From the NCBI RefSeq assembly GCF_014191425.1, contig NZ_JACHWP010000001.1, forward strand, positions 496,001 to 560,000: 64,000 nucleotides of DNA, read 5' to 3'. The position numbers were made by a program, and so were the translations under genes. Below the pieces are notes generated by a model. The model ran no database searches, was not told the origin of the DNA, and saw only the letters and a list, made by a program, of their open reading frames with translations. This document shows, piece after piece, positions 8,817 to 28,358 of this stretch. How positions within the stretch are numbered: the stretch's first letter is position 1; each line of letters starts with the position of its first letter. The DNA is from Helcobacillus massiliensis. Its GTDB lineage: Bacteria > Actinomycetota > Actinomycetes > Actinomycetales > Dermabacteraceae.

Positions 8817-8819
8817 CGT

Positions 8820-9361: not shown

Positions 9362-9419
9362 TGACGCGCGTCAGACTTAGTGGCAGGGCCGTTATGTAGG
9401 TCCTGAAGGAGAGTCAGAC

Positions 9420-9737
9420 ATGGGTAGACCACCCTCGATTCCGGCGGAGAAGAAGACCCGGATAGTGCTGAGCGTGCTGGCCGGCGAGATGTCCATCGCC
9501 GAAGCGGCACGCAAGGAGAAAGTCAGTGAGCAGTCCATCGGACGGTGGAAGGCCGAGTTCCTGGAAGCCGGCAAGACCGCCCTGGTGGCCGGCAGGTCCG
9601 GACCATCCTCCCGAGAGGAACAGTTGGAGGCCGAGGTCGCCGAGCTGACCCAGGCCTTGGGCGAGGCACACCTGGAAGCCAGGGTGTGGAAGAAGTCCGC
9701 GGAGGGCCGGCTGGGCCCTTCGAGGACCTCGAGGTGA
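9420..9737 (+). CDS. IS3-type transposase OrfA
   Basis: This 105-aa protein has an N-terminal helix-turn-helix (AEKKTRIVLSVLAGEMSIAE, EKVSEQSIGRWKAEFL) and a leucine-zipper-like helix (REEQLEAEVAELTQALGEAH), as in OrfA of IS3-like elements. OrfA binds the terminal repeats. A good ribosome site (aaggagag) precedes ATG 9420. The 3' end overlaps orfB by 4 bp (GTGA at 9734-9737), so either coupling or frameshifting could make the OrfAB transposase; I see no A-rich slippery site. Confidence 0.88.
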   Translation: MGRPPSIPAEKKTRIVLSVLAGEMSIAEAARKEKVSEQSIGRWKAEFLEAGKTALVAGRSGPSSREEQLEAEVAELTQALGEAHLEARVWKKSAEGRLGPSRTSR

Positions 9738-12376: not shown

Positions 12377-13480
12377 TTACGTGGGTCGATTCACGTCGAG
12401 GACCGGCGGACGAGGGTCGTCCAGGAGAGAGGCAAAGATGAGCGTGTCGGTCCATTCGCCCTTGTTCCACCAGTCCTGACGCAGGTGGGCCTCCTGCCGC
12501 ATGCCCACGGCAGAGGCGAGCCTCGCTGAGGGCCTATTGCGGGCATCCATCTGAGCGACCACGCGGTGCAGTCGGTGGTGCTCGAAAGCAATGCGAAGGA
12601 CCTCGGCGACCGCCTCGCGCGCGAAACCATGGCCGCCATGGGCTGGATGGAGTACCCAGCCGATTTCCGCGACGCGGCGCTCCTTGTCGGTCAGCCACAG
12701 CAGGACGTCCCCGATCGGGACGCCGCCATGCTCGATGACCAGCGCAAGCGCGCTAGTCTCGCCATCGAGGCCGGTCTTGCTCAGGCGCTCGGCGAGCTTG
12801 TCGCGGGTGACTTCCGCGGTCCACGGCTCATCCAACAGGTAGCGGGCAACGTCAGGTCGCGAGTACAGCTCGTGAAGCCATTCGGCATCGCCTGTCTCAT
12901 GCAGACGGAGCCGAAGCCGCTCCGTCGCCAACGGCCACTGGGCGCTGAGCACGAGATCGCGCCGGTAATGAAACAACTCCTGGTGCTGTCCTGCGGGCGT
13001 GGTCCCGACGCGCCGCTCGACCTCACGGAACCCTGCGTTCGTCAAGCACCGCTGAGAGGCTTCGTTCTCCGGAAGTGTGCGTGCCGTCAAGGTTCGCAGT
13101 CCACTGCTGTGTGCGAAGCGCGATGCCAACTCCAGGCCCCGACGAGCGTGCCCTGCTCCCCGCGCATCCGGATGAATCCAGAACCCGACCTCGGCAGCCT
13201 CAGAGCTGACGTCGAAGAGCACCAAGGAACCCACAAACCGGTCCGTCTCGGCGTCGGCAAGTGCAAGGACTGCCAAGGTACCCGACGACAGACCTGCCGC
13301 GACCTCTTCACGGATCATCCGTCGCACAGACTCGGGGGTGTAGTCGGGCTCAGGAAGGTGGCCGAAGCGCCGCACAGCCTCATCCTTGGTGCCGGCCGCA
13401 TACGCGTCTGCGTCCAGCTCAGAGAGGGGGCGTAGGCGAGTGTCCTCAAAGGTGATCGGAAGGGTGGTGGCATCCAACAT
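12377..13480 (-). CDS. Tandem GNAT (RimJ/RimL-like) acetyltransferase
   Basis: This 367-aa protein contains two GNAT domains in one chain (about 8-175 and 183-355). Each has an acetyl-CoA loop-like segment, HPDARGAGHARRGLELA in the first and HPAHGGHGFAREAVAEVL in the second. Each also has a RimJ/RimL-like N/Q-rich ending (ENEASQRCLTNAGF; RNRPSARLASAVGM). The substrate is unknown; a resistance-related acetyltransferase is possible given the neighbouring efflux pump. It is divergent from the TetR gene with a 59-bp gap, and the MFS gene follows on the same strand. Confidence 0.85.
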   Translation of the reverse strand: MLDATTLPITFEDTRLRPLSELDADAYAAGTKDEAVRRFGHLPEPDYTPESVRRMIREEVAAGLSSGTLAVLALADAETDRFVGSLVLFDVSSEAAEVGFWIHPDARGAGHARRGLELASRFAHSSGLRTLTARTLPENEASQRCLTNAGFREVERRVGTTPAGQHQELFHYRRDLVLSAQWPLATERLRLRLHETGDAEWLHELYSRPDVARYLLDEPWTAEVTRDKLAERLSKTGLDGETSALALVIEHGGVPIGDVLLWLTDKERRVAEIGWVLHPAHGGHGFAREAVAEVLRIAFEHHRLHRVVAQMDARNRPSARLASAVGMRQEAHLRQDWWNKGEWTDTLIFASLLDDPRPPVLDVNRPT

Positions 13481-13488
13481 GCGCTAAA

Positions 13489-13531
13489 CCTAACATAGAA
13501 TGGATAGCTAACTGAAGCGTGTTTGGTTAGG
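13489..13531. promoter_or_regulatory. Candidate TetR operator
   Basis: The 59-bp divergent gap holds cctaac (13489-13494), an internal gctaac (13508-13513) and the inverted copy gttagg (13526-13531). Such repeated or inverted ctaac half-sites between a TetR gene and its divergent partner are the usual operator position. Inference from position and symmetry only. Confidence 0.45.
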
Positions 13532-13539
13532 CTGGTGGG

Positions 13540-14136
13540 GTGAGCTACTGGGAACACCGCAAACCTGTGCAACGCCTCCGCGCAGTGGACATCGTGGAGG
13601 TTGCGAGGGCATCGGTGAGGCTGCTGGACGAAGGTGGGTTGAGGGCCCTCACCCTGAGATCTGTGGCGCAACAGGTGGGTGTCGCTCCAGCCAGCCTGTA
13701 CTCCCGCGTGGAATCAGTCGACGATCTGTTCGACCTCGCCCTCGACACAGCGCTTGCAGACGATCCCGTGATGTCCGAGTCGATCCGCAACGCCGACCTG
13801 CCCGCCCTGATGCATGCCTTCTTCGCGCACCTCACGACCCACCGGTGGGCCGGTCAGGTCATTGGCATGCGCGCACCCCGGGGCCCGGCGTACCTGGCCC
13901 TTTCCGAGCGGATGTGCGTCCTGCTCGAACAAACGGGTACCCCGGATCCGCTGGGAACGGCCTACCGATTGTCCAACCTGGTGATCGGCGCCTCCCTGAC
14001 CGCCCCCATGGCATCTGACGAGAAGCGTGTCGCCATCGACCCTGACCAAGCCCCTACCTATGCGCGACTCCACGCGACGCACCACATCAGCCCGCAGGAG
14101 ATCCTCTCCGACGGCATCACGGCACTCTTGTCGTGA
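13540..14136 (+). CDS. TetR-family transcriptional regulator
   Basis: This 198-aa protein starts at GTG 13540. The N-terminal HTH reads GGLRALTLRSVAQQVGVAPA followed by SLYSRVESVDDLFDLALD, the TetR pattern. The C-terminal ligand domain resembles the tetracycline-repressor class. It is divergent from the GNAT-MFS pair and probably represses it and itself, with relief by the pump's substrate. Confidence 0.9.
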   Translation: MSYWEHRKPVQRLRAVDIVEVARASVRLLDEGGLRALTLRSVAQQVGVAPASLYSRVESVDDLFDLALDTALADDPVMSESIRNADLPALMHAFFAHLTTHRWAGQVIGMRAPRGPAYLALSERMCVLLEQTGTPDPLGTAYRLSNLVIGASLTAPMASDEKRVAIDPDQAPTYARLHATHHISPQEILSDGITALLS

Positions 14137-14212
14137 GGGGGCTTTTGATTCGGGGCTGCCGTGCGTTGCTGATGGCCACGGACTGGTCTCCGTGAGAGTG
14201 CGCCCACAATCG

Positions 14213-14450
14213 CAGTGCGCCGATATTCGGACGGGCTGATCCCGACGACGTCGGTGAACTGCCGTGCGGCATGCCCACGGCTGCGCCACCCGACTTTTGT
14301 CATGGCGACGCGGATTGGAAGATCAGTCTCGACCAGGAGCTCGGTTAGCCCGTGGGCCCGAACATGGGCCAGGTACCGCATGAGCGGCATGTGGAACCGC
14401 TGTGTGAACGCACGCTCCTACAGTCGTAGCCGCCGCGTGACACCGCGCCC
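14213..14450 (-). pseudogene. AraC-family DNA-binding domain remnant
   Basis: The minus strand encodes ERAFTQRFHMPLMRYLAHVR, then VETDLPIRVAMTKVGWRSRG, HAARQFTDVVGISPSEYRRT, the C-terminal half of an AraC HTH domain. An in-frame TAG lies just upstream of ERAF, and no N-terminal part is attached. It is the tail of a decayed gene. Confidence 0.7.
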
Positions 14451-14548
14451 GTCACAGGCAGCCCTGCTGCTTCGCAACCCGTGAGTCCAACACATCTTTC
14501 TCCTCACAGCCATGAACCGCCGACATGAACGCAGTGGCCAGCATTGCG

Positions 14549-15426
14549 CTAACAGACATGACCGCACCACGGGCACGTCCGCACGCCTCGATCGCGGTAC
14601 GCAGCCCGATACTCGGTCGGTGACCTCCCGGTGAGCTTGCGGAACTGCTTCGCTGCGTGAGCCTGGTTTCTCCAGCCGACCTCGGCTGCTGCCTGTCGGA
14701 TGGTTGCGTCGGTGGCGCTGATGGTTCGAGCCATCGCTCTCACCCGTTGAAGCGTCAGCCACGCGATCGGCGGCATCCCGAAGATCTCGACGAACAACTG
14801 TCGCAGACGCGAGGGTGACAGATGCGCGATCTCAGCCAACTTCGCCAGTGACCACGGATGTGCCAAATCTGTCTGCATCACCACTGACAAGTGAGTGAGT
14901 ACCGCACGGGAACCAGCCTCCTCGTCGACGGAAGGGCGCGACTGCGGGCGTCGACCATGCTCCGGGCTGGGTGTCATGGGGCGAAGGGGCTCAGGTGTTG
15001 ACGAAGACTAGGCCGAGCAAACCATTGAGCCTTCCCTGCTCGGCATGTGCACCAGACCCGCCCGATCCCGGCCCAGATGCAGCACCTGCGCCGGCTCGGA
15101 GTACACCTTCTCGGCAAAGCTTTGGGCGTCTAATCGGTCGTGCAAGATCGTGGAGTATTGCCAGAAGAACTGATCCAACGCGAGGTCGGTGTCGACGTAG
15201 ATCGTTGTGAAGGTCAGTAGCCCTTCGGTTCGATTCCGCACAGCACGTGGGGTCCGAGCAGGATCGCATCGCCGAAGCTAACCGGCTGCTCGCCGAACTC
15301 GGAGAACACGATCGACGTGCCATCGCGCACCACGACAAGCCGCACGCAGTCATAGGTAGCCGGCCCGATGGGGCGATGAACGGTGCGGGTGCGGGCTGAC
15401 AAGGGCGGGGAGAGTCGTGCGGCCAC
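14549..15426 (-). pseudogene. AraC-family regulator broken by frameshifts
   Basis: Three pieces in successive frames reconstruct one cupin-AraC regulator. 15214-15426 gives the N-terminal cupin (VRLVVVRDGTSIVFSEFGEQ ... GIEPKGY, then stop). 15008 to about 15241 continues it (LTFTTIYVDTDLALDQFFWQ ... AEKVYSEPAQVLHLGRDRAG). 14549-14977 holds the DNA-binding domain (LAHPWSLAKLAEIAHLSPSR ... HAAKQFRKLTGRSPTEYR). A one-base shift near 15221-15228 separates the first two. The last piece has its own ATG at 14977 and could be made as a 142-aa DNA-binding protein. The full regulator is not made. Confidence 0.75.
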
Positions 15427-15509
15427 TCATTGCTGCTGTCTGAACCAGTGCTCTGCTTCGGCAGCGGCCATCGGTGCGGACGCCAGCCAGACCACGCGGA
15501 TGTGCTGGG

Positions 15510-16958
15510 TCATGCTGCTCTCGCGGGAGCGTTGCGCATGGCGCGTGTGCTCAGGAGCCAGGTGAGGACGGCGAACGCGGAGGCGATCAGCGCTGCGGCA
15601 AGGAATCGTTGCGGGGTGTCGGCGGAGAGCGGCCATGCTGTGGGTCCGAGGATCCAGAGCCAGGTGTCGGCGAGGATGTCGCCGCCGAGGGTGACGCCGA
15701 CGATGATCAGGATCACCGCAGCGCCGAGCGCCCACCCAGCGCCGAAGCGGACGGTGATCCAGAGCGCCCCGAGGGTGCCGGCGATGCCGAGGATCAGCCA
15801 GAGCGCCCCGGATTGGGTGATGGCGAGCAGGGACGCGGCGTCGCCGTGGCCTCGTCGTAGGGCGTTGGCGAGAGCGGTGACGGTCACCGCCACGGACACG
15901 AAGCTGACCCAGAGCAGCAGCCAGGCTTGCACAGCGGTGGGAACTGTGGCCTTGCGGAGGATGAGCACCCGCCATCCCGGAAGGACAGCCTGCCAGGTGA
16001 GGACGGCGATGACGCAGGCGCCGAGGGGCAGCATTGCGTAGGTGTGCAGCCCGAGCAGGTACGAGTTCGGGTAGATCGCGGCGGTGGCGACGGCGAGCAG
16101 GATCGCGGCAGCGCACAGCGGCATGACGGCGCGAGAGCGCATCATGGCACGGATCGCTCCGACGGCGCTTTCTCGGGTGCTGCGGCGTCCGACCGGTCGG
16201 CTGTCCGTGCCTCGTTCCACCCGAAGCGTGCCCGGCAGCCGCACCCGCAGAACCAGTACGAGCACGGTCAGGAGGACGCTGAGCGTGAGCGCGAGGGCGG
16301 GTGATTCGGTGGCGAGCGGGTCGCTGGCTGCGAGGGGTTCGGCGTTCTGGTGTGCTCCGAGTATCGGGAGCATCGCTCGGACGGCCCAGGTCGGGGGGAT
16401 CGCGAACCAGGCGGTCGTCTCGGCGGCGAGAGCGCCGATGACCTGCCAGACCCAGGCGGCGAGGAACACGGGGATCGTGCCCCACCGTTCGGTGAGCACG
16501 AACGCGAGCGCGAGGAGGCCGAGTGTCGCGACCCAGCAGGCGAGACCGGCCCACAGGAGGCGCGGGATGTCGGTCGGGGCTCCAGCGGCGAGGGAGAGCG
16601 GGATGACGAGCCAGAACGCGAGCGCGTGGAACAGGGCGGAGAGGCCGGCCAGGACGATGAATCGCGCGACGAGGATGGTGCGCGGGTTGGTAGCTCTCCA
16701 GAGGGTGCCGCCGTCTCGGGCGGTGGTCTCGCGGGCGGTGGTGAGGCCGGCGAGGAGCGTCATGAGTGGTGCGGCCATGCCGGTGACGTAGAGGGTCTGC
16801 CACAGCAGTGCCGCGCGTTCCTGGTTCTCGGGCGTGATGAGGATGCCGGCAGTGCTGATGCCGGCGAGGATGATCCCGACCCAGGGAAGCGCGGCCGCCG
16901 CTGACCCTCTCGCGCGGACTGCTTCTGCCCGGATCGCAGGGGTGAGCGCGCCCATCAT
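15510..16958 (-). CDS. ABC transporter permease (large, about 12 TM)
   Basis: This 482-aa protein is almost wholly hydrophobic helices, with a hydrophilic break near the middle (RVERGTDSRPVGRRSTRESA) that divides it into two permease-like halves. It resembles ABC-2-type permeases that pair with BcrA-like ATPases. Its start overlaps the stop of the upstream ATPase gene by 4 bp (ATGA), so they form one transporter. It is the last gene of the ECF-sigma operon. The substrate is unknown; lipid, peptide antibiotic or stress efflux is plausible. Confidence 0.82.
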   Translation of the reverse strand: MMGALTPAIRAEAVRARGSAAAALPWVGIILAGISTAGILITPENQERAALLWQTLYVTGMAAPLMTLLAGLTTARETTARDGGTLWRATNPRTILVARFIVLAGLSALFHALAFWLVIPLSLAAGAPTDIPRLLWAGLACWVATLGLLALAFVLTERWGTIPVFLAAWVWQVIGALAAETTAWFAIPPTWAVRAMLPILGAHQNAEPLAASDPLATESPALALTLSVLLTVLVLVLRVRLPGTLRVERGTDSRPVGRRSTRESAVGAIRAMMRSRAVMPLCAAAILLAVATAAIYPNSYLLGLHTYAMLPLGACVIAVLTWQAVLPGWRVLILRKATVPTAVQAWLLLWVSFVSVAVTVTALANALRRGHGDAASLLAITQSGALWLILGIAGTLGALWITVRFGAGWALGAAVILIIVGVTLGGDILADTWLWILGPTAWPLSADTPQRFLAAALIASAFAVLTWLLSTRAMRNAPARAA

Positions 16959-17719
16959 GCCGCCTCCTGCTGTGTGGCGCTGAGCATGGTCAGTTTGAGG
17001 AACTCTTCCTCCAACCGTCCTGGGGCAGCGAAGTCTGCGAGGGGTCCTTCGTAGCGGCAGACGCCGTCGGCGAGGACAGAGATGTCATCGGCGAGCTGCA
17101 CGATCTCGCCGAGCTGATGGGAGCTGACCAGGACCGTCCGGCCCGCGGCGGCGTAGTCGCGGAGCAGTTGGCGCAGCTCGGCGATGCCCTGCGGGTCCAG
17201 GCCGTTCTGAGGCTCATCGAGGATCAGCACGTCCGGCTCGGTGAGGATGGCGATGCCGAGTGCGAGCCGGGCTTTCATGCCCATCGAGAAGTGGCGGGCG
17301 CGCTTGCGGCCCGTGCTGGCGAGTCCGACGATGTCGAGCACTTCCTCGATCCGTGCCCGTCCGACCCCAGTGAGCCGGGCGTGCACGAGGAGGTTGTCGA
17401 ACGCGCTCAGGTGCGTGTAGATCGCGGGGCCGTCGATGCTCGCGCCGATGCGTTCCAGTGCGGCCCGGTTCTTGGTACCGGACGCCGGGGGCTGGCCGAG
17501 GACATCGATCGTTCCCGAGTCGGGCTGCATGAGTCCGAGCAGTAGTCGGAACGTGGTGGACTTGCCGGCTCCGTTGCGGCCGAGCAGCGCATGGACGCGC
17601 CCGGCCTGGACGTGGAGGTCGAGGCCGTCGAGCACGACCGTGTCGCCGCGCTGCAGGCGCACGTCGGTGCAGCGGATCGCCGGCTGCGGCGCCGGGGCGG
17701 GTGCGGGTTGGGCTGTCAT
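16955..17719 (-). CDS. ABC transporter ATP-binding protein (BcrA-like)
   Basis: About 254 aa from ATG 17719, chosen for its ribosome site aaaggag. Walker A is GRNGAGKST, the signature is FSMGMKAR (the degenerate form usual in antibiotic-efflux ATPases), Walker B is VLILDEPQNGLDPQG, and a switch histidine follows in VSSHQLGE. It energises the 482-aa permease. It lies 25 bp after the lipoprotein gene in the ECF operon. Confidence 0.92.
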   Translation of the reverse strand: MTAQPAPAPAPQPAIRCTDVRLQRGDTVVLDGLDLHVQAGRVHALLGRNGAGKSTTFRLLLGLMQPDSGTIDVLGQPPASGTKNRAALERIGASIDGPAIYTHLSAFDNLLVHARLTGVGRARIEEVLDIVGLASTGRKRARHFSMGMKARLALGIAILTEPDVLILDEPQNGLDPQGIAELRQLLRDYAAAGRTVLVSSHQLGEIVQLADDISVLADGVCRYEGPLADFAAPGRLEEEFLKLTMLSATQQEAA

Positions 17720-17744
17720 ACAGCGGCTCCTTTCTGATGCCGTG

Positions 17745-18125
17745 TCAGGCGTCGCAGACGGTGAACGCGAAGGTGCGCAGCGTGCCGATCGAGCCGTCGG
17801 AGATGTCGCCGATCGGTGGCAGGTCGGCGTTCTCATCCACCGAGTTGAGGGCGTATTCGGTGCCGTCGGGGGCGGTGAATCGCAGCACGGGATCGCCCTT
17901 GCCGTTCTTCTCGCAGCTGACGGTGCCGTGGTCCACGTCGAGGTTCCACGAGTGGCCGAAGTCGTCGGCCGTGACGTCCTGCGGGTTGCTGGTCGCAGTG
18001 CGGGTAGGGCCGTCTTCGGGGAAATCCTCGGGGTTCATCATCCCGTTGCATCCGGCCAGACCGAGCGTCAGCAGCGCAGCGCCGACGGCGGCGGACATGC
18101 GGATGGTCGTGCGGTGGATGTTCAT
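17745..18125 (-). CDS. Secreted lipoprotein, DUF2511-like
   Basis: This 126-aa protein has a signal peptide ending in lipobox LAGC (Cys26). A small domain follows with DDFGHSWNLDVDHGTVSCEK and VLRFTAPDGTEYALN, resembling DUF2511/YebY-type proteins. Two further cysteines (Cys96-region and the C-terminal VCDA) could form a disulfide. It should be anchored on the outer face of the membrane. It lies between the two ABC modules and overlaps the upstream ATPase stop by 4 bp, so it may be a substrate-binding or sensor part of these transporters. Confidence 0.78.
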   Translation of the reverse strand: MNIHRTTIRMSAAVGAALLTLGLAGCNGMMNPEDFPEDGPTRTATSNPQDVTADDFGHSWNLDVDHGTVSCEKNGKGDPVLRFTAPDGTEYALNSVDENADLPPIGDISDGSIGTLRTFAFTVCDA

Positions 18126-18994
18126 GCGTGCTCCTTCGGGATCGTGAGGGCCATGTAGCCGTCTTCGAGGTTCGGATCGACCGGCGTCGCGTCCGCAGGC
18201 GGGGTGTCGGTAACGATCCGGTACCGCGTGCCGACCCCGGTCGTGGTGGCGTTGACGACCGTGACATGCTCCGGCGGAGGCGCGCTGCGGGAGGCGGTGA
18301 GCCAGGTGCGGCCGCGGGCGGCGTCGATCAGCCCGTCGGTGGGTCCGTCGTAGCGCAGATGCCCCTCCCGGAGGACGAAGACGTACGGGCAGGTCTGCGC
18401 CACGTCATCGAGGATGTGCGTGGACAAGATCACCGTGCGGTTCTGCCCGAGGCTCGCCAGCAGGGTGCGGAACCGCATCCGCTCCTCGGGGTCCAAGCCC
18501 GCGGTGGGCTCGTCGACGACGAGCAGTTCCGGGTCGCCCATGAGTGCTTGCGCGATGCCGACCCGCCGGCGCATACCGCCGGAGAACCCGCCGACCTTGC
18601 GATCTTTCGCCTCGTTCAGGCCGACCTGGGAGATCAGCTCACGAGCTTGCCGTCTGCGGTCGGTCGCGCTGTCGATGCCTTTGAGCACGCCGACGTAGTC
18701 GAGGAACTCGAGCGGGGTGAGGTTCGGGTACGGCTCGACATCCTGCGGCAGATAGCCGAGCGTCTTCTTCACTGCCCGGCGCGTCGCGGCTCCTGAGAGG
18801 TCGTGACCGTCGATGAGCACCCGGCCCCTCGTGGGCTGGATGATCCCGCACAGGATGCGCATGAGCGTGGTCTTCCCGGCGCCGTTGGAGCCGAGCAGCC
18901 CGATCATGCCCTGCGGCAGGTCGAGGGTGACGTCATCGAGCGCGGCGGGCTTCTTGCGGAAGTCCTTGCCCAGGTGATCGATGGAGATGAACAT
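18122..18994 (-). CDS. ABC transporter ATP-binding protein
   Basis: About 290 aa from ATG 18994, with ribosome site aaagga. Walker A is GSNGAGKTT, the signature FSGGMRRR, Walker B LLVVDEPTAGLDPEE, with the switch histidine in ILSTHILDD. The family is the multidrug/antibiotic export ATPases. An extra C-terminal domain of about 70 residues (from VVNATTTGVGTRYRI) is present. It pairs with the two permeases just upstream in the operon. Confidence 0.92.
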   Translation of the reverse strand: MFISIDHLGKDFRKKPAALDDVTLDLPQGMIGLLGSNGAGKTTLMRILCGIIQPTRGRVLIDGHDLSGAATRRAVKKTLGYLPQDVEPYPNLTPLEFLDYVGVLKGIDSATDRRRQARELISQVGLNEAKDRKVGGFSGGMRRRVGIAQALMGDPELLVVDEPTAGLDPEERMRFRTLLASLGQNRTVILSTHILDDVAQTCPYVFVLREGHLRYDGPTDGLIDAARGRTWLTASRSAPPPEHVTVVNATTTGVGTRYRIVTDTPPADATPVDPNLEDGYMALTIPKEHA

Positions 18995-19005
18995 GCGGTT
19001 TCCTT

Positions 19006-19770
19006 TCAACGCTTGGCCATGCGCCCGGCCAACGCGGACCCGGCGGAGAGCAGAAGGACGATGATGACGAACTGGACGAGCAGCGAGACGGTCGCCGTCC
19101 ACGCGGTGCCGTCGAACGCGAGCAGCCCTCCGGGTGGGTGGATCGAATCGGCACCGAAGTAGCCGGCCGCGATCGCGTCGCCGATCACGGTGAAGACCGT
19201 GCCGTTCGGGGTGGGCAGCGGGAGGAGCGAGGACGAGAAGATCAGGAAGAACCAGACCAGCACGCCCGCGATACGGCCGAGCGCGCGCGGCAGGATTGCG
19301 CCGAGCAGCGCCGACAATGACATGGCGATCAGCACGCCGGGGGCGATGATCGTCGCAGTCACCGCCACCGCCACTGGGATCGACCATGGATGCCCGCTGA
19401 GCGTCTGCACGACGCCCATAACCAGGAGCACTGCCAGTGCGGGAACGACGACGACGCCGAAGGTGCCGAAGATCCTCGCTGTGCGCAGGGCGAGGGGGCG
19501 TACCGGGGTTGAGGCTTCGAGTTCGTTGATCCCTAGCCGTGAGGGGGCGGTGAAGAAGTCGGCAAACGCGGCGGCGTAGGCGACGCCGGTGAACATCACG
19601 ATCAGCTGTGCGGAGAACGCGAGGTCCTCGATGCCGCCGGTGCCGGGCCGGGCCGGAGAGATGACGGCGAGCAGGGTGGCGAACGCGGTCAGCGGGATCG
19701 CGGTGAACCACAGCGCTTTCTGCCGCTGGGCGACTTTCGAGTGCGTGCGAGCGAGGGCGAGAACCGTCAT
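19006..19770 (-). CDS. ABC transporter permease
   Basis: About 254 aa starting at ATG 19770, which overlaps the upstream permease stop (ATGA). It has six or so hydrophobic helices and the short cytoplasmic motif GINELEASTPVRPLALRTAR, like the coupling region of ABC-2 permeases. With the 208-aa protein upstream and the ATPase downstream it makes a complete exporter. Substrate unknown. Confidence 0.82.
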   Translation of the reverse strand: MTVLALARTHSKVAQRQKALWFTAIPLTAFATLLAVISPARPGTGGIEDLAFSAQLIVMFTGVAYAAAFADFFTAPSRLGINELEASTPVRPLALRTARIFGTFGVVVVPALAVLLVMGVVQTLSGHPWSIPVAVAVTATIIAPGVLIAMSLSALLGAILPRALGRIAGVLVWFFLIFSSSLLPLPTPNGTVFTVIGDAIAAGYFGADSIHPPGGLLAFDGTAWTATVSLLVQFVIIVLLLSAGSALAGRMAKR

Positions 19771-20393
19771 GCCGCGACCACCTTTGCGATGTTGCGTTCC
19801 GCCTTCGCGAGCCGGTGCCAGACGGCGACGAGGAGTCCGGCCGAGATGATGAGCGGGACACCCCGCTGCAGGTGAAGCGGCAAGACATAGGGGTCCCAGA
19901 GCATCGCGAGGAACATCCATGCCGCCACGACCGCGATGGTGGTGGTCGATGCCGTGCCCGCGAACGCTGCGGCCACCATTGCGACGACGATCATGATCAC
20001 GACCGCGCCGGCAGGCGACGCTACCGACGTCCAGCCTTCGTCGCGAGGCCAGACCCGCAGCGCGTGCAGCGGGAAGAACATCAGCACCGCACCAGCCAGC
20101 CCGGACAGCGCCACCAGCCCGGCACGCAGGAACTGCACGCGCCGGAAGCCGGTCGGCGTGGACTCGTGCAGCTCGATCAACGGGTCACCCGTGAGGGCGA
20201 CCGCCGCACAGACGCCAGTGGCGATCACGAACACCTGCGCGAGCCAGTTCACCAGAGTCATCGCCTGCGAGAGCGGCCAGGCGTCGGCGACAAACCAGCC
20301 GGCGAGGGCGACCACGGCCCCAGCGAGGACCGGCCCGACGAGCACCATCAGGCCGACGCGTCGGCCCTGTGCACGGATCGCTGCTCTCGTCAC
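19767..20393 (-). CDS. ABC-type membrane permease subunit
   Basis: This 208-aa protein begins at GTG 20393 (ribosome site aggagcaggaa). It has about six helices and an ELHESTPTGFRRVQFLRAG loop that parallels the ELEASTPVRPLALRTAR loop in the next protein, suggesting the two are paralogous half-permeases forming a heterodimer. It is the first gene after an ECF-type promoter motif at 20432-20460. Confidence 0.78.
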   Translation of the reverse strand: MTRAAIRAQGRRVGLMVLVGPVLAGAVVALAGWFVADAWPLSQAMTLVNWLAQVFVIATGVCAAVALTGDPLIELHESTPTGFRRVQFLRAGLVALSGLAGAVLMFFPLHALRVWPRDEGWTSVASPAGAVVIMIVVAMVAAAFAGTASTTTIAVVAAWMFLAMLWDPYVLPLHLQRGVPLIISAGLLVAVWHRLAKAERNIAKVVAA

Positions 20394-20431
20394 TTCCTGC
20401 TCCTGAACTCTTGAGAATCTGCATCTACAAG

Positions 20432-20460
20432 GTCAGTAGCGGGGTCAGGCGGATCGGTTC
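20432..20460 (-). promoter_or_regulatory. Candidate ECF-type promoter of the ABC operon
   Basis: On the minus strand GAACCG (20455-20460) is followed after exactly 15 nt by CTACTGAC (20432-20439), 38 nt ahead of GTG 20393. The same two boxes with the same spacing lie before the sigma gene at 21863-21891. GAAC-type -35 boxes are typical of ECF sigma factors. The -35 overlaps the stop of the upstream membrane-protein gene. Confidence 0.7.
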
Positions 20461-21253
20461 ACGCGGATTGCAGTCCGCTGATCGCGGCCCGCCGCGCCGT
20501 CGTGACGGCCGCGACCAGCAGGGCCGCGCCTGCTCCCAGCAGACCGAGCGGGGTCAGCGCGTTCCACAGCACCCCGGACAGGCCGAAGAAGAACATCGCC
20601 TCGGACACCGGGGCGGCCATCGGGATGAGCACCAGCCCGGCGGCGATGCCGGCCCAGGGTGCGACCCAGATCGAGGCGAACGTCGCGGCTCCCGCGACCA
20701 GCGCGACCGGGATCAGCCAGCTCGCGACGACCTCCGGCAGGCCGCTCGTGTACCCCCAGGTTGATACCAGGCCGGACGCCGCAAGCCCGGTGAGCGCGTC
20801 GACGACCAGCACGAGAGCGATCCGCGCGAGCACGACCACCTGCGGGCCGAGCGGTGTCGTCAGGGCGATCGCGTCGGGCTTCGCGGACGACAGCGCCATC
20901 GTCACTGTGACAGCGATCCCGGCGAGCATCACCGAGGCGAACCCGGTGTCGCCGGCCGATCCTCCCTGTGTCACCCCGAAGAACCGGGCCGCGAAGATCG
21001 CCATCGTCACAGTCACCAGGGCGACCGGGAAGATCAGCCACGGCACCACCCGAACCTGCGCCCACGCCAGAACCGCCGCCAACCTCGCACTCCGCCTCGC
21101 GGACCACCGGGGACCATTCATCGGAGACGGCGCGCTCGCGATCCGACGCCGGATCAGATCGAACGCGGGCGCCTCGCCCTGTTCGCTCTCCCAGCGGCGC
21201 AGCACCTCACGGAAGGCGTCATCGCCGCCGGGGTCAGACCTGTGCTCAGTCAC
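20459..21253 (-). CDS. Membrane protein, candidate anti-sigma factor
   Basis: This 264-aa protein has a cytoplasmic N-terminus of about 70 residues (FREVLRRWESEQGEAPAFDL...) and about six membrane helices. Its start overlaps the sigma gene by 8 bp, the usual place for a cognate anti-sigma factor. No HxxxCxxC zinc anti-sigma motif is present, so it would be a non-classical anti-sigma or sensor. The role is inferred from position only. Confidence 0.7.
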   Translation of the reverse strand: MTEHRSDPGGDDAFREVLRRWESEQGEAPAFDLIRRRIASAPSPMNGPRWSARRSARLAAVLAWAQVRVVPWLIFPVALVTVTMAIFAARFFGVTQGGSAGDTGFASVMLAGIAVTVTMALSSAKPDAIALTTPLGPQVVVLARIALVLVVDALTGLAASGLVSTWGYTSGLPEVVASWLIPVALVAGAATFASIWVAPWAGIAAGLVLIPMAAPVSEAMFFFGLSGVLWNALTPLGLLGAGAALLVAAVTTARRAAISGLQSA

Positions 21254-21830
21254 CGTTCCTCCTCAACTCCTCGCGCAGCAGGCGCCGGGCGCGAGACACC
21301 CGGCTCTTCACCGTTCCTCGCGGGACGCCCACCAGCTCCGCGATGTCCTCGTACGGCAGCTCGTGCACCCAGGCCAGCCGAACGACCTCGCTCAGATCGG
21401 CGGGAAGCGCTCTCAACGCCGTCAGGAGTGCTTGGGTCTCGTCGGCGGATGCCACCAGGTCGGCAGGATCACCGTCGTCCGCGGGGATCGCGTACTCAGA
21501 TTCATCGAGCGGCACCTGCTCCAGACGCTTGCGCCGGGTGTGCGCGTAGATCTGCCGCTTCGCGATCCCCAACAGCCAGGTCAGCACGCGACTGTCGCGG
21601 CGGAACGCGCGCGCCGATCGCCAGCAGCCCAGCCACACGTCAGCACTGACCTCTTCCGCGACTCCGCGGTCCGGCGTCCGAGCCGAAACGAAGCCGAACA
21701 CCACGGACGAGTAGCGCGCGTGGAGCTCAGCGAGGGCACGCTCATCGGCGGCACCGATCCGGAGGAGTAACGCCTCATCCGTCTCGACCGCTGAACCTGA
21801 CCACGCCACTCTGTACTCTTCGCCTCTCAC
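21246..21830 (-). CDS. ECF RNA polymerase sigma factor
   Basis: About 194 aa. Region 2 is LAELHARYSSVVFGFVSART with VAEEVSADVWLGCWRSARAF. Region 4 is LPADLSEVVRLAWVHELPYE with DIAELVGVPRGTVKSRVSRA. No extra regulatory domains are present. GTG 21830 with gagg 4 nt upstream is used here; a GTG seven codons later is possible. It probably recognises the GAACCG-N15-CTACTGAC motif found upstream of itself and of the ABC operon, giving positive autoregulation. Confidence 0.92.
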   Translation of the reverse strand: MRGEEYRVAWSGSAVETDEALLLRIGAADERALAELHARYSSVVFGFVSARTPDRGVAEEVSADVWLGCWRSARAFRRDSRVLTWLLGIAKRQIYAHTRRKRLEQVPLDESEYAIPADDGDPADLVASADETQALLTALRALPADLSEVVRLAWVHELPYEDIAELVGVPRGTVKSRVSRARRLLREELRRNGD

Positions 21831-21862
21831 GACCTCGCACTGCCCATCGCAGCTCTCACCAA

Positions 21863-21891
21863 GTCAGTAGCACCCACGAGCCAACCGGTTC
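21863..21891 (-). promoter_or_regulatory. Candidate autoregulated ECF promoter
   Basis: On the minus strand GAACCG (21886-21891), a 15-nt spacer and CTACTGAC (21863-21870) lie 33 nt before the sigma start. It is identical in both boxes and in spacing to the motif at 20432-20460, while the spacers and flanks differ. Confidence 0.72.
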
Positions 21892-22172
21892 ACGAGCACT
21901 GACCGACCAGAGACGAACGACGACTCGCCTCCAACGTAAGCCGCCCATTCGCGGTGTCGCGTCGCACTCAAGTACCGTCAGCATCATCCGTGAGCATGAT
22001 CGTGCGACCGGGGAGCAAAGGCCTTGGGAGCACACTCACCGGGCACACGACCGAAGCCGACCGCCATGCCTCGGACGCCGCTTTACGGGTGAAGTGTCTG
22101 GGCGTGACCAAGGGCAGTCATCTGATGGCTTCTCTCGTGTGATGCGACAACGAATACCGAGGGGAACGGCTG
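21892..22172. other. Intergenic gap between sigma promoter and recombinase remnant
   Basis: Together with the promoter this leaves about 340 bp without a convincing gene. A 62-codon frame on the plus strand (21954-22142) has no recognisable motif or ribosome site, and I do not call it. Nothing repetitive is seen. Confidence 0.5.
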
Positions 22173-23042
22173 TCATCGCGTCTTCGCCCACACCGTGCAC
22201 CGGTGCACCCCGAACTGACGAGCCACCGCGTTCACGCTGATCCCTTGCGCCCGGGCTGTTCGCATAGCGTCCACTTCCTCGTCCGTGAGTCGTGTTCGAG
22301 GTCGTTTCTTTGGTTCCGCTGACGTGCCGATCAGCGGGTCGTCCGGCTCTCCGGCAAGGTCGCCATCCCCACGGGTGCCTTGATTCCATGCGGAAACCAG
22401 CCGCTCGACCCTTGGTCGCCTGTTCCCGCAACGCTCCATTGCGTCCACCAAATCAGACGTACTAGAACACCTGACATCGGAAGATGTGGGTGCGAGGGTG
22501 GCGAACGGCTCGTTGAGCTGGATCGCCGCTTTTTCGTCTTCGGTGATGAGGATGCGTTGGTAGAAGGCTTGGTTGGCGAGCCGTTTCCCGTGGTCATCTG
22601 TGCGGGCATGCATCTGGGCGCAGTCGACCAGCAGCCGCAGTGCGGTGGCGAGGTGTCGGCGGGGGCCTTCGTGGTCGTGCCGCTCGGCTTCCAGGCGTTT
22701 GGTGATGTCAGCCAGAGCGATCCTGATCCGGTCCTGGTGGCGTTTCAGCGTCGGTAGGTCGATGGCGTCGGCGAAGTGGGCTTCGAGGAGCTTGTCCGCC
22801 TCGGCTTCCAATCGTTGCTTGGCGCCGGTGAGATCGTCGAGGGCTTGGGACCGCTCGGCAAGACGCTCATCGAAGGCAGCCTCGACCCGCTGTGCGAGCA
22901 GCCGTTAGGTCTGCTCGGTGATGGCGATCTGTTGGTAGCAGTCGGTGACGAGTTGTTCGGCGATGCCGACGGGCACGGCCTTCCTCGTGCACGTGGTGCG
23001 TTTGGTGGCTCTACCGGTGCAGATGTAGTAGGCGTAGCGGAT
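22173..23042 (-). pseudogene. Second serine recombinase C-terminal remnant
   Basis: From the IS at 23043 the minus strand reads YAYYICTGRATKRTTCTRKA (recombinase zinc ribbon), then VPVGIAEQLVTDCYQQIAIT. An in-frame TAA follows at 22905-22907. Beyond it the coiled-coil part continues in the same frame (LEAEADKLLEAHFADAIDLP). It ends with a helix-turn-helix (DAMRTARAQGISVNAVARQF). The catalytic serine domain is absent: the IS cuts the gene and the DNA beyond the IS does not resume it. It is a different gene from the tRNA-Ala-linked remnant. Confidence 0.8.
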
Positions 23043-23049
23043 TGAACCG

Positions 23050-23480
23050 CCCCGGCATGTCCGGAGACTTGGTTTGGTGGCTCAGGCGGTGAGTCTGGGT
23101 CGATGGTAGTGCAGGTCCCGTCCGAAGGCATGGGCTTGAACCTGCGCCGACGCGTCGCCCCTTGCCAGCCCTGGGCGCGGTAGAGCCGCTCGATCGTGCA
23201 ACGAGCCACGTCATGGCCCTGCGAGCGCAGGAAGATCCACATCTTGCGCGCACCGAAGCGAGTCAGGAACCGGTTGGCTTCGCGCAGCTGGCGCATCAGC
23301 TCGACCAGCTGCTGGTCACGCAGCGTCCGTGCCGAGGCGCGGCGTTGGCGGGCCTCGTAGTAGGTGCTCGGAGCGATCTGGCAGCCATGCTCACGCAAGA
23401 CCTTGCAGATCGGCTCGACCCCGAACCGGTCACGATGGGCGTCGACGAAATCGACTAGTACCTGCCGGGGCGGTCGAGCT
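23050..23480 (-). pseudogene. IS3-family OrfB, N-terminal part only
   Basis: The frame overlapping the end of OrfA reads VDFVDAHRDRFGVEPICKVL, REHGCQIAPSTYYEARQRRA and TRFGARKMWIFLRSQGHDVA, then IERLYRAQGWQGATRRRRFK: the OrfB N-terminal HTH region. The sequence then jumps almost at once to the right terminal repeat, so the integrase core with the DDE triad is deleted (roughly 500 bp). Confidence 0.8.
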
Positions 23481-23778
23481 CCGCCGCAAAGAAAGCCGAG
23501 GCCGCCTTCAAGATCTCGTTCGCGCGGCGCAGCTCGGCGTTCTCCCGCTTCAGCCGCTTCAACTCGGCAGACTCCTGACTTGTCACCCCAGGGCGGACGC
23601 CCTGGTCGATCTCGGCCTGCCGTAGCCACTTGCGCAGCGTCTCGGGCGAGGTGATCCCCAACTTGGCGGCCACCGACTTGATCGCGGCGAACTCGGTCTC
23701 GTGCTCCTCGCGGGACTCCATCACCAGCCGGACAGCCCGCTGGCGCAACTCGGGCGGGTACTTCGAAGGACGTGCCAT
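23455..23778 (-). CDS. IS3-family transposase OrfA
   Basis: This 107-aa OrfA is intact: an HTH (AVRLVMESREEHETEFAAIK, AAKLGITSPETLRKWLRQAE) and a leucine-zipper helix (ELKRLKRENAELRRANEILK, AASAFFAAELDRP). It binds the element ends. An A-rich start region with aaagga upstream serves ATG 23778. Without a complete OrfB it cannot transpose the element alone. Confidence 0.9.
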   Translation of the reverse strand: MARPSKYPPELRQRAVRLVMESREEHETEFAAIKSVAAKLGITSPETLRKWLRQAEIDQGVRPGVTSQESAELKRLKRENAELRRANEILKAASAFFAAELDRPGRY

Positions 23779-23937: not shown

Positions 23938-24684
23938 TCAGCGGAGCTTGACTGTACGGATCGTTGTGCCGGTGAGCGCGACGATGATCAGTGCGACGCC
24001 GAGCGCCGTGCCGATGAGCGGCAGCGCGTCCTGGGCCGTGAGCCCCCCAGAGCCTGCGAGAGCGGACGACCCGAGGTTCAGAGCGCGGGTGTTGATGGCT
24101 TGTGGCCAGATGAAGCTCAGCGGTCGGAGGGCTTCGCTGGTGACGGTGGCGACGCCGACGACACAGCCGAGGAGGCAGATCGCGACGGGTGCGGCGAACG
24201 ATTTGAGCAGCATCGACAGCAGCGATTGGATGGCGATCAAGGGCAGGGCCGCGAGGACGGAGATCGCGCCGATGAGGGCGAACTGCCACGGGATCGCTCC
24301 CTCTAGCCCGAGTACGAGCGTGCCCGAGATCAGGGTGCCTGCGACGAGGACGAGCTGCATGAACGCGACGGGGATCATGATGACCAGGACCTTGGCGACG
24401 ACCAGCTTGACGGGCTTGCGGGTGGTGGTCAGGAGGAGGTTCCAGTTGGTGCCGCGGTGTTCCACCCGCCAGGCGGTGGACGCGATCAAGCCGATCCCGA
24501 TGGAGAAGAACAGTAGTCCGTAGAAGAGGGTGACCTGCGAGGTGAAGGATGCCCATCCGGCGTCGAGGGTGTCGGGGTTGTTGGCGAGGTTGATCGTCCC
24601 GGTGGTGACGGCCAGCAGCGGGAGGATGAGCGCGATGATCCAGGTGGCGGAGCGCTTGAGTTTGAGGATTTCTGCGCGGAGCAC
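23938..24684 (-). CDS. Lantibiotic-immunity-type ABC permease
   Basis: This 248-aa protein has six helices and the N-terminal MLRAEILKLKRSATWIIALI pattern of LanG/MutG-type permeases. The cytoplasmic loop WRVEHRGTNWNLLLTTTRKP is typical of ABC-2 immunity permeases. It is the third gene of an ATPase-permease-permease operon, 4 bp after the second. The product should expel a peptide antibiotic from the membrane. Confidence 0.85.
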   Translation of the reverse strand: MLRAEILKLKRSATWIIALILPLLAVTTGTINLANNPDTLDAGWASFTSQVTLFYGLLFFSIGIGLIASTAWRVEHRGTNWNLLLTTTRKPVKLVVAKVLVIMIPVAFMQLVLVAGTLISGTLVLGLEGAIPWQFALIGAISVLAALPLIAIQSLLSMLLKSFAAPVAICLLGCVVGVATVTSEALRPLSFIWPQAINTRALNLGSSALAGSGGLTAQDALPLIGTALGVALIIVALTGTTIRTVKLR

Positions 24685-24688
24685 GGGG

Positions 24689-25441
24689 TTACCTTTCGAT
24701 CCGGTCGAGACGTCGGGTGGCGACGGCGAAGACGATGCCGACGAGGATGAGGAAGCCGGCGATCCATCCGAACGGCGGCGTGAGATACACGAGGCGGTCT
24801 CCCTGTTGCCCGATTGGGGAGATCATGGCGTAGTACCCCCAGGGGATGAGCCGGGCGATGGCGGTCGAGGTGAGGAGTGTGAAGACGCCGAGGAACGCGC
24901 CGAGCATGCCGACGCCGACGGAGACGAGCTGGTTCTCCACGATGGCGGCGAGCCAGATGTGCAGCGCGAGGAACGCGACATCGATGAGGAACAGCAGCCC
25001 CGTGTACAGAACCCACGGCCCCGGATCGAGGGGCACGCGGATACCGGCGAACAGGCCGATACCGATCACGAGCAGGGTCTGCACGATCACGGCGGGCAGC
25101 AGGACCGCGCTGAGCGCGACGAGTTTCGCCCGGCACAGCACGCCGGGTGAGTAGCCAGCGGTGGAGGCGAGGGTCCAGCCGATGCCAGAGTGTTCGATGT
25201 CGGTCTGTCGGCTGGCGAGCACGGCGGCGAGGATCGGGGAGGTCATCGCGGCCATGAGGGTGTAGGTCACCATCAGGCCCGCCCAGGGCAACGCGTCCGG
25301 GTCGTTGAACGATTCCTGCGTGCTGCCCGCGAAGAGGGAGAAGCTGGACAAGCCCGCGACGGCGAGGACCAGGATCGCGGTGATGAGGAACGTGCGCAAG
25401 CGGCGCATCTTGCGGAACTCGAGCCGGATCGCGCGCCTCAC
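24689..25441 (-). CDS. Lantibiotic-immunity-type ABC permease
   Basis: This 250-aa paralogue of the downstream permease starts MRRAIRLEFRKMRRLRTFLI and has a matching loop (SRQTDIEHSGIGWTLASTAG). Its start overlaps the ATPase stop by 4 bp. LanE/MutE-like by position. It probably forms a heterodimer with the product of 23938-24684. Confidence 0.85.
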   Translation of the reverse strand: MRRAIRLEFRKMRRLRTFLITAILVLAVAGLSSFSLFAGSTQESFNDPDALPWAGLMVTYTLMAAMTSPILAAVLASRQTDIEHSGIGWTLASTAGYSPGVLCRAKLVALSAVLLPAVIVQTLLVIGIGLFAGIRVPLDPGPWVLYTGLLFLIDVAFLALHIWLAAIVENQLVSVGVGMLGAFLGVFTLLTSTAIARLIPWGYYAMISPIGQQGDRLVYLTPPFGWIAGFLILVGIVFAVATRRLDRIER

Positions 25442-26337
25442 AGCAGACCACCCCTGCCGGTGAGGTCCATGAACACGTCTTCGAGGCTGTGCGCGACACG
25501 ACGCACCTCGTAGATCGGGACACCTGCGACGGCGAGCTGATAGACGACCTTCGCCGTCTGGTCCTTGTCGATCCCGCTCATCCGGATGCCCTCAGGAACC
25601 CGGGTCGCCGTCAGTCCTTGTGCGAGGGCGGCCTGCGGGTCGGAGGTCTCGATGATCAGATCGGGCACGGACTGTTCGAAGAGCTGGTCGCGGCTGCCCT
25701 GGAAGATCATCTTCCCGCTGGAGAGGATGCCCAGGACGCTGGCCATCTTGTCGATCTCGTCGAGCAGGTGGCTGGATACCATCACGGTGATCCCTTGACT
25801 GGCCAGGTCCACGAGCAGCATGCGGACCTCTTCGATTCCGGCCGGGTCGAGTCCGTTGGTTGGCTCGTCGAGGATGAGCAGCGCCGGGTTGCGTGCGAGG
25901 GCCATTGCGATGCCGAGCCGCTGCTTCATGCCGAGGGAATAGTTGCGAACGAGCTTGTTCTCTTGCCCGGTCAGTCTGACGGTCGCCAGTGCGTGGTCGA
26001 TCTGCGCGGTCGAAAGGTCGAGCATGTCCTGGACGATCCGCATGTTCTCCCGGCCGGTGAGGTGCCCGTACCCGGGAGGAGCCTCGATCATCGACCCGAT
26101 CGACGGCAGCAGCTTGGTGCGCGATGCGCGCGTGAGCGGTTCGCCGAGGACTTCGATGTCGCCGCTGGTCGGCTGGGTCAGGCCCAGGATCATCTTCATC
26201 GTGGTCGACTTGCCCGACCCGTTCGGCCCGAGGAACCCGTACACGTGACCCTGTGGGACGTCGAGGTTCAGGGCGTCAACGGCGGTGTGGGTCTTGAACT
26301 GTTTGGTCAGTTCGTGGGTGGTGATGACGCTGGTCAT
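25438..26337 (-). CDS. Lantibiotic-immunity-type ABC ATPase
   Basis: About 299 aa from ATG 26337, with gagg six bases upstream; a longer frame to 26430 lacks support. Walker A is GPNGSGKST, the signature YSLGMKQR (as in BcrA/LanF ATPases), Walker B LLILDEPTNGLDPAG, and the switch His lies in VSSHLLDE. It couples ATP hydrolysis to removal of a membrane-active peptide. It is divergent, across 141 bp, from a sensor kinase likely to control it. Confidence 0.92.
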   Translation of the reverse strand: MTSVITTHELTKQFKTHTAVDALNLDVPQGHVYGFLGPNGSGKSTTMKMILGLTQPTSGDIEVLGEPLTRASRTKLLPSIGSMIEAPPGYGHLTGRENMRIVQDMLDLSTAQIDHALATVRLTGQENKLVRNYSLGMKQRLGIAMALARNPALLILDEPTNGLDPAGIEEVRMLLVDLASQGITVMVSSHLLDEIDKMASVLGILSSGKMIFQGSRDQLFEQSVPDLIIETSDPQAALAQGLTATRVPEGIRMSGIDKDQTAKVVYQLAVAGVPIYEVRRVAHSLEDVFMDLTGRGGLL

Positions 26338-26478
26338 GGATGCCTCGTTTCGGTCGGGTTCGTCACCCCATCCACAATTCCCGGAATAGTCGCGTGGCAG
26401 ATCGTGCTGCGGCACGAACTCGGTCTTCATGCCGTGGTATGAGTCGTTTCGGATGCCCGCGCCATAGGCTGGGTAGGC

Positions 26479-27693
26479 ATGGAACCGTTCACCAGCCCTG
26501 CGACCCGTGACCGGCTCCGCGCTGTCTGGCAGGGACAGCCCTGGGCGGCTGACCTCCTACTTGGGGCGCTAGGCGGATTCCTTGGCGCGATTGGCCGGCC
26601 AACCTTGTCGTTCGTGACATACGAGCAGACGGCCTACAGCATCATCGTATTCGGCTGCTCGGTCGCTCTGATCTTTCGGCGCATGCGCCCACGCCTCAGC
26701 CTCGCCGTCATCGGCGTACTGCTCGTCCTGCACCTCGTCACGGTGCAGGAACTGACGCTGTTCGCCGGCGCGGTCTGCCTCATCGCGGCATACACCACAC
26801 AGACGCAGCTGTTCGCGCCGTGGCGGTGGGGGTATGTCGCCGTCATCTACGTTGGTGCAGCTGCGGCAGTGCTCACCTCATCGACCCCCGCCGCGGACAC
26901 CGAGTGGAAGGTCAGGCTCGTGATTGCGGCAGCCGCAGCAGCGCTGGTCACCGTCGCCGTCCTGGCCGGCACCGTCCGGAGGACCCGGAAGGCGCGCTAC
27001 GAGGACGCGCTCGAACGTGCCGCTGTTCTGGAAGCCCGGCAAGCGGTGGAGCGACGGCTTGCCGCTGTCGAGGAACGCACACGCATCGCCCGCGAGATGC
27101 ACGACGTGCTCGGCCACTCCTTGAACACGATTGCGGTGCAGGCAGAAGGTGCCCGGTGCGTGATCAACACCGATCCCGACCGCGCCGATCAGGCGCTTGC
27201 CGTTATCGGTCGCTTGAGCCGGACCGCCGTCGATGACGTTCGCGACCTCATCAATGTCCTCGGCACCGATCACGACACTGAGGCTCTGACACGCCCTACC
27301 CCAAGCCTGCGCGAGATCGGCGCGCTCATCAGCGAGTTGCAGCACACAAGAGCACCGATCCGGCTTCACGTGGATGGAGACTTGGGGGCCGTCCCGGACC
27401 AGGTCGGACTCGCCGGCTACCGGATCGTGCAGGAGAGCATCACGAATGTCCTGAAGCACGCCTATGGCGCAGCAGCAAGTGTCCGCATCGTCGTCCACGA
27501 CCGTGCAGTTGATCTGACCATTCATAACACTTCGACAGGCCAATCGCAGACCACGCGGCGCGATGGTTCTCACCAAGGGATCATCGGCATGCAGGAACGC
27601 GCACGCGCACTTGACGGCACCTTCACCGCAGGCCCCGACCCGAACACCGGTGGATGGTGCGTCTCCGCGAGCCTGCCATGGAGGCAGCCATGA
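26479..27693 (+). CDS. NarL-type sensor histidine kinase
   Basis: This 404-aa protein has about five N-terminal membrane helices (to about 165), then a HisKA_3 dimerisation helix with phosphorylated His208 (ARIAREMHDVLGHSL pattern), and a C-terminal HATPase with VLKHAYGAA and GIIGMQERA. Such kinases with little extracellular sequence often sense antibiotics through their partner ABC transporter. Its stop overlaps the response regulator start (ATGA), and it is divergent from the immunity-type ABC operon. Confidence 0.92.
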   Translation: MEPFTSPATRDRLRAVWQGQPWAADLLLGALGGFLGAIGRPTLSFVTYEQTAYSIIVFGCSVALIFRRMRPRLSLAVIGVLLVLHLVTVQELTLFAGAVCLIAAYTTQTQLFAPWRWGYVAVIYVGAAAAVLTSSTPAADTEWKVRLVIAAAAAALVTVAVLAGTVRRTRKARYEDALERAAVLEARQAVERRLAAVEERTRIAREMHDVLGHSLNTIAVQAEGARCVINTDPDRADQALAVIGRLSRTAVDDVRDLINVLGTDHDTEALTRPTPSLREIGALISELQHTRAPIRLHVDGDLGAVPDQVGLAGYRIVQESITNVLKHAYGAAASVRIVVHDRAVDLTIHNTSTGQSQTTRRDGSHQGIIGMQERARALDGTFTAGPDPNTGGWCVSASLPWRQP

Positions 27694-28358
27694 TCACCGT
27701 CGGACTCGCAGACGACGAACCACTGTTCACCGCGGGGCTGGCGATGATCCTCGACGCCCAGCCCGACATGAGCGTTCTCTGGCAGGCCATCGACGGAGCC
27801 GACGCCATCCGTCAACACAACCACGAAGCGCCGGACATCCTGCTGCTCGACATCCAGATGCCCACCCTCGACGGTCTCGCCACCACTCAGCACCTCATCA
27901 CTGCCGGAACACAGAGCAAGATCATCATCCTCACCACCTTCGACACCGACGAGTACGTGCTCACCGCGATCGAGTCCGGCGCGTCAGGATTCCTCGTCAA
28001 GAACACCGCTCCCAACGATGTCGTCACAGCCATCCGCACTGTTCACGACGGCGATGCCGTCATCTCGCCCGGCCCCACTAGGAGGCTCTTCACCACGTTC
28101 CGGAAACGCCCAGGAGGTCCCGCCGCGTGCCCTTCACCCACCGACAGTCGACTCGCAGACGAACTCACACCCCGAGAACGCGACATCCTCGCCCTCATCG
28201 CGCGGGGCCGCACCAATCAAGAAATCTGCGACGAACTCTGGCTCACCATGCCCACCATCAAGACCCACATCGGCAACCTCCGCGCTAAGACCCAAGCCCG
28301 CGACCGCGTGCAGCTCGTGCTCTTCGCCCTGCGGGTCGGCATCGCCGAGCTCACGTAA
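27690..28358 (+). CDS. LuxR/NarL-family response regulator
   Basis: About 222 aa from ATG 27690. The receiver domain has acidic residues ADDE and phosphorylatable Asp54 (LLLDIQMP), with the conserved Thr and Lys (TTFDTDEYV; GFLVKNTAP). A LuxR HTH follows (LTPRERDILALIARGRTNQE, TIKTHIGNLRAKTQARDRVQ). It is partner of the upstream kinase and likely activates the divergent ABC operon. Confidence 0.93.
   Translation: MITVGLADDEPLFTAGLAMILDAQPDMSVLWQAIDGADAIRQHNHEAPDILLLDIQMPTLDGLATTQHLITAGTQSKIIILTTFDTDEYVLTAIESGASGFLVKNTAPNDVVTAIRTVHDGDAVISPGPTRRLFTTFRKRPGGPAACPSPTDSRLADELTPRERDILALIARGRTNQEICDELWLTMPTIKTHIGNLRAKTQARDRVQLVLFALRVGIAELT

Follow-up and report, generated by a model that had tools for sequence, protein, structure and literature searches.

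Twin MibX-type promoter motifs at an ECF sigma locus of Helcobacillus massiliensis: a probable stand-alone, lantibiotic-inducible immunity module

What does an ECF sigma factor control when the same bipartite motif precedes both its own gene and a nearby transporter operon? The question arises from the window analysed here, a stretch of 64,000 nucleotides of the Helcobacillus massiliensis genome, in which a sequence-only reading had picked out two identical copies of GAACCG-N15-CTACTGAC and predicted that the sigma factor drives both its own gene and an ABC/lipoprotein operon. A pattern search placed exact copies at 20432-20460 and 21863-21891, both on the minus strand, just where that reading had seen them, and the genome-wide scan that it had called for returned these two alone, both at the sigma locus, in the whole 2,616,799-base genome. 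The reversed control gave 0 copies in the same genome, and the chance expectation from base composition is 0.016 copies per genome (window G+C, 67%). Allowing one mismatch added only two further genomic places, each within a long open frame. The 15-nt spacers of the two sites have 5 of 15 bases in common; because they differ, a simple duplication of the motif region, already discounted by the sequence-only reading, can be rejected. The second motif ends 38 nt before a GTG at 20393, as claimed, and the sigma-side motif ends 32 nt, rather than the claimed 33 nt, ahead of GTG 21830 in the sigma open reading frame.

Two sites with the MibX promoter core

The conserved unit is shorter than the motif first described. 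Both sites can be re-cut as GAACC-N15-GCTAC, usually with GT ahead of the boxes and an A three bases behind them; the terminal TGAC of the original motif is conserved in part only. At both sites this core is letter for letter the published promoter consensus (PMC4973701) of the ECF sigma factor MibX, which is responsible for autoinduction of the lantibiotic microbisporicin (NAI-107) and of the genes for immunity to it. We term the candidate promoter of the sigma gene P1 (21863-21891; core 21867-21891, with GAACC at 21887-21891 and GCTAC at 21867-21871) and that of the putative immunity operon P2 (20432-20460; core 20436-20460, with GAACC at 20456-20460 and GCTAC at 20436-20440). The −35 box of P2 overlaps the stop codon of the putative anti-sigma gene. 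Applying the published MibX-promoter rule, transcription would be predicted to start near 21857-21859 from P1 and near 20426-20428 from P2. No sigma-70-type promoters were found in 15000-22200, and terminator-like matches in the same interval were at chance level. The 10-base core occurs seven times in the genome, against 20 copies of its reversed control; five of the seven lie within long open frames, and promoter position is seen only for the two at the sigma locus. With only two such sites, we reject a genome-wide stress regulon.

A scan of named genomes yielded 14 orthologous loci with sigma identities of 52-100%, distributed over Corynebacterium, Microbacterium, Kocuria, Actinomyces, Brevibacterium, Peptidiphaga, Propionibacterium, Gordonibacter, Bifidobacterium and Actinobaculum. 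The core lies ahead of the sigma gene in all 14 loci and also ahead of the gene behind the anti-sigma gene in 12, the exceptions being Gordonibacter (L045) and B. ramosum (L051). For a non-redundant set of ten loci we took 200 bases ahead of the sigma gene and 200 ahead of the membrane-protein gene that opens the operon, giving 20 regions. The P1 core was present at 10/10 loci and the P2 core at 9/10, P2 being missing within those 200 bases at the Gordonibacter locus, and the spacing was always 15. No permuted box pair out of 4,997 found a match in more than two of these 20 regions, in which spacings of 10-21 other than 15 also gave no match. The promoter comparison across orthologous sigma operons that had been proposed thus finds the boxes recurring at the same two places with the same spacing. 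Conservation of the core letters follows by construction, because the sites were chosen by their core; independent evidence comes from where the sites lie, from a spacing that does not vary, from the divergence of the spacer sequences and from the additional conserved GT and A that flank the boxes. Within the class, remoter members of this sigma clade (L102, L104-L109, L111-L113) carry the same boxes, separated by N15 or N16, upstream of the sigma gene. Two Bifidobacterium loci (L046 and L048) have a third GAACC-N15-GCTAC site, at 8798, before a 339-aa open reading frame (8852-9871 in L046) upstream of the sigma gene, and this frame is likely to be an extra regulon member.

Genes of the sigma locus

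All eight genes of the locus lie on the minus strand, tightly packed, and all frames are open in the window. The MibX-like ECF sigma factor (21246-21830; 194 aa) starts at GTG 21830 or, as in the Kocuria orthologue, at GTG 21809. It contains sigma-70 regions 2 (Sigma70_r2, PF04542, residues 37-102) and 4 (Sigma70_r4_2, PF08281, residues 133-185), both above cut-off, as is TIGR02937, and has neither region 1 nor region 3, the arrangement that defines ECF factors. It aligns with its orthologues in a 12-member alignment and belongs to a discrete clade. In the sigma tree, the orthologues of the NAI-107-like clusters described below (L043, L049 and L041) group with the window's sigma factor; producers are nested among non-producers, with mixed branch supports.

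The next gene (20459-21253) overlaps the sigma gene by 8 bases and encodes a putative anti-sigma factor of 264 aa, with about 55 cytosolic residues followed by six hydrophobic segments (hydropathy, an alignment of 11 sequences and a model with pLDDT 81). It has no Pfam or NCBIfam match, and the best hits of a fold search, the ABC-type membrane subunits NosY and CcmB, were not significant (E about 0.5), so the anti-sigma role rests on MibW-like position and topology.

The placement of the second site before an ABC operon stood, with the correction that the first gene encodes a membrane protein and the ATPase comes later. This membrane protein (19767-20393; 208 aa, about five hydrophobic segments) is present in all orthologous loci and occupies a MibJ-like position. 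It is followed by an ABC-type membrane subunit or permease in MibY-like position (19006-19770; 254 aa), assigned by locus comparison and hydropathy, and by an ABC ATPase in MibZ-like position (18122-18994; 290 aa), assigned by family matches and locus comparison, which is the best conserved protein of the module, with 71-90% identity in nearly all close orthologues. A small lipoprotein in MibQ/MlbQ-like position (17745-18125; 126 aa) has a lipobox cysteine that is invariant in an alignment of nine orthologues; its structure model (pLDDT 60) was too poor for use. The order sigma, anti-sigma, membrane protein, permease, ATPase, lipoprotein is kept in nearly all orthologous loci, and locus comparison did not detect the lipoprotein at L041 and L045. 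By order and conservation, the window has a counterpart of the NAI-107 immunity set MlbJ-Y-Z-Q: a single operon behind a MibX-type promoter encodes the membrane protein, the permease, the ATPase and the lipoprotein.

Two further genes complete the operon. The first encodes a second ABC ATPase, which is LanF-like (16955-17719; lantibiotic protection ABC subunit, TIGR03740, E=1.2e-64), and the second a 482-aa permease with about 12 hydrophobic segments (15510-16958), whose first half is LanE/MutE-like (TIGR03732, E=2.7e-15, residues 51-237) and which is possibly a fused LanE-LanG. Both fall short of the curated cut-offs for a LanFEG-type immunity transporter (218 bits against 309.75 and 56 bits against 145.2, respectively), and the best immunity-model matches of the pair are lantibiotic protection transporters. 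The pair is common to the window, Brevibacterium luteolum (L035) and a near-identical Corynebacterium locus. Elsewhere in the window, at 23938-28358, a second ABC transporter (ATPase and two permeases) is divergent from a NarL-type histidine kinase/response regulator pair; no GAACC-N15-GCTAC site was found in that region.

Biosynthetic genes and a near-identical Corynebacterium locus

Two oral bacteria, Peptidiphaga gingivicola (L043) and Actinobaculum sp. oral taxon 183 (L049), have lanA, lanB, lanC and a lanD-like gene immediately ahead of the module, in NAI-107-like clusters at 3403-9718 of L043 and 4145-9685 of L049. The LanA cores, ITSVSLCTAFCTSQGGGSFCSFCC in L043 and ITSWSFCTGGCTSRGGGSFCSWCC in L049, resemble NAI-107, and the latter matches PDB 2mh5, the solved lantibiotic 107891 (E=5e-4). 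These clusters share with the window an orthologous sigma factor (61%), anti-sigma factor (47%), both promoters and a J-Y-Z-Q-like operon; they differ in the lanA, lanB, lanC and lanD genes ahead of the module, which are absent from the window's genome. A third NAI-107-like peptide, together with LanB and LanC, is encoded in Actinomyces ruminis (L041, L119) on the module's contig, about 10-20 kb away. In a distant member of the class (genome G401), the sigma promoter motif stands at 9701 and 12156 of locus L106 beside LanB, LanC and LanD-like genes, in a different gene order.

Whole-genome searches of the window's genome found no match to LanB (PF04738), LanC (PF05147) or an NAI-107-like LanA, and hence no NAI-107-type biosynthetic cluster, in an assembly of 28 contigs rated 99.9% complete that could in principle miss a small lan cluster; the same searches were positive in the L043, L049 and L041 genomes. 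A direct search found no Microbispora-type LanA in the family of genome G339 (35 genomes). Of the 14 genomes with an orthologous locus, 11 lack LanB. The Kocuria metagenome-assembled genome that holds the nearest sigma relative (L040) has nothing more than a LanA-like leader whose short core lacks cysteine (8704-8841), 1.2 kb upstream of the sigma gene. This may be a lantibiotic gene in decay or may encode a peptide with a different function; such a leader remnant is what would be expected if modules outlive their clusters. Given that LanA, LanB and LanC are not detectable, the module most likely provides inducible resistance to peptides from other bacteria.

The module also appears to move. 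Window positions 12432-23042 are 97.2% identical over 10.6 kb to a contig labelled Corynebacterium halotolerans 307_CHAL (L038, 8795-19397), with the promoter boxes unchanged, and the obg genes of the two genomes are 73% identical. Given this disparity, the simplest reading is recent horizontal transfer of the stretch, with some residual chance of contamination in one of the two assemblies. An intact 618-aa serine-recombinase-like gene (7802-9658) lies just upstream of the module in L038. In the window, the serine recombinase is truncated to its C-terminal part (22173-22811) beside fragments of an IS3-type transposase, pieces of which lie at 22745-23778, upstream of the sigma gene (orfA 23455-23778 and a broken orfB). 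Plasmid collections held no near match to the island and returned only distant generic sigma factors.

Proposed circuit and related systems

Sequence comparison leads us to read the two sites, with a probability of roughly 0.85, as a pair of promoters served by a single ECF sigma factor of MibX/PspX type, which governs an immunity cassette that stands alone, is induced by lantibiotics and contains a positive autoregulatory loop. We infer that the membrane anti-sigma factor encoded directly behind the sigma gene would keep the sigma factor inactive until an NAI-107-type lipid II-binding lantibiotic, or envelope damage from such a peptide, at the membrane led to its release. The free sigma factor would then bind P1, driving its own gene in a positive loop, and P2, driving a MibJ/Y/Z/Q-like efflux and sequestration system plus the LanF/LanE-like transporter, with resistance as the predicted phenotype. 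The earlier prediction that the sigma factor drives both itself and the ABC/lipoprotein operon gains strong comparative support from the orthologous twin boxes and the match to the MibX consensus; it had captured the motif and the circuit and overlooked the core, the anti-sigma gene between the sites and the probable lantibiotic-immunity nature of the operon.

Could the locus instead encode an ECF regulator that answers to envelope stress in general, paired with an ABC transporter whose substrate is unrelated, the likeness to lantibiotic immunity being generic? Many ECF sigma factors respond to envelope stress, the family matches of the ABC ATPases are broad, and neither TIGR03740 nor TIGR03732 reaches its curated cut-off. 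However, the regulon is local, since only two promoter-position sites exist genome-wide, the orthologous modules sit within NAI-107-like lan clusters and the promoter core is identical to that of MibX; we regard such a regulator as quite improbable. It is also unlikely that the locus is the remnant of a former producer, with its biosynthetic genes lost, its regulator and immunity genes inert and its circuit no longer functional. The Kocuria leader and the nesting of producers among non-producers would fit that history, but the eight frames are open and both promoters intact in the window, and the near-identity to a distant Corynebacterium with unchanged boxes suggests maintenance and transfer as a unit. 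A 14-letter match spotted by eye invites suspicion of cherry-picking, yet it is scarcely credible that non-promoter sequence was repeated by chance or duplicated locally: the spacers agree at only 5 of 15 bases, and this reading is already contradicted by the recurrence of the pair at these two places in loci that have diverged.

Beyond a lantibiotic-induced immunity cassette in this one genome, we lean, with some reserve, towards a mobile eavesdropping cassette, in which an ECF loop taken from NAI-107-type producer clusters would give Actinomycetota that apparently make no such peptide themselves, Bifidobacterium and Gordonibacter among them, an inducible resistance that detects the lantibiotics of neighbours. 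NAI-107 has been in preclinical development, and if orphan sensor and immunity copies circulate in gut, mouth and soil actinobacteria, they would form a ready reservoir of inducible tolerance to its class. With one sigma factor and two promoters, the module would also offer a compact system for testing by what means a lipid II-binding peptide is sensed by an ECF anti-sigma factor, the question that MibW poses. A literature search that covered few subscription journals found no published description of orphan MibX-type modules. The circuit logic, MibX-type feed-forward control, is already known; what is new is its uncoupling from production and its spread among apparent non-producers.

In Microbispora, the MibX consensus precedes mibX, mibJ, mibQ, mibR and mibE, and constitutive mibX activated reporter fusions of these genes and not of mibA (PMC4973701). 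Immunity of the NAI-107 producer involves MlbJYZ efflux and the sequestering lipoprotein MlbQ (PMC6283892), and MibEF also confers immunity in M. corallina (PMC4973701). Judged by promoter, gene order, topology and published descriptions, not by Mib/Mlb protein sequences, the window resembles MibX/MibW of Microbispora corallina in having the same core before the sigma gene and MibJ-type immunity genes, a sigma/anti-sigma gene pair, and immunity genes for an ABC transporter and a lipoprotein placed under that sigma factor (PMC4973701; PMC6283892). It differs in having no lanA/B/C or tailoring genes, in that no MibR-type activator was found in the operon, and in the arrangement of the sigma and immunity genes as one compact block. 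PspX/PspW is another ECF sigma/anti-sigma pair, which places a class I lantibiotic of an actinobacterium under feed-forward control. It has been named in the planosporicin cluster of Planomonospora alba (PMC6001450). The feed-forward control is alike, as far as descriptions allow the two to be likened, and PspX/PspW differs in being producer-linked. Stand-alone lantibiotic resistance is familiar from Firmicutes in the form of NsrFP with NsrRK, BceAB-type modules and immune mimicry. The Nsr system provides inducible lantibiotic defence in non-producers (PMC4773095, PMC4828448). The window's module would likewise be an inducible defence in an apparent non-producer; in Firmicutes, however, such defences are governed by two-component systems, whereas here an ECF sigma/anti-sigma pair would take that part.
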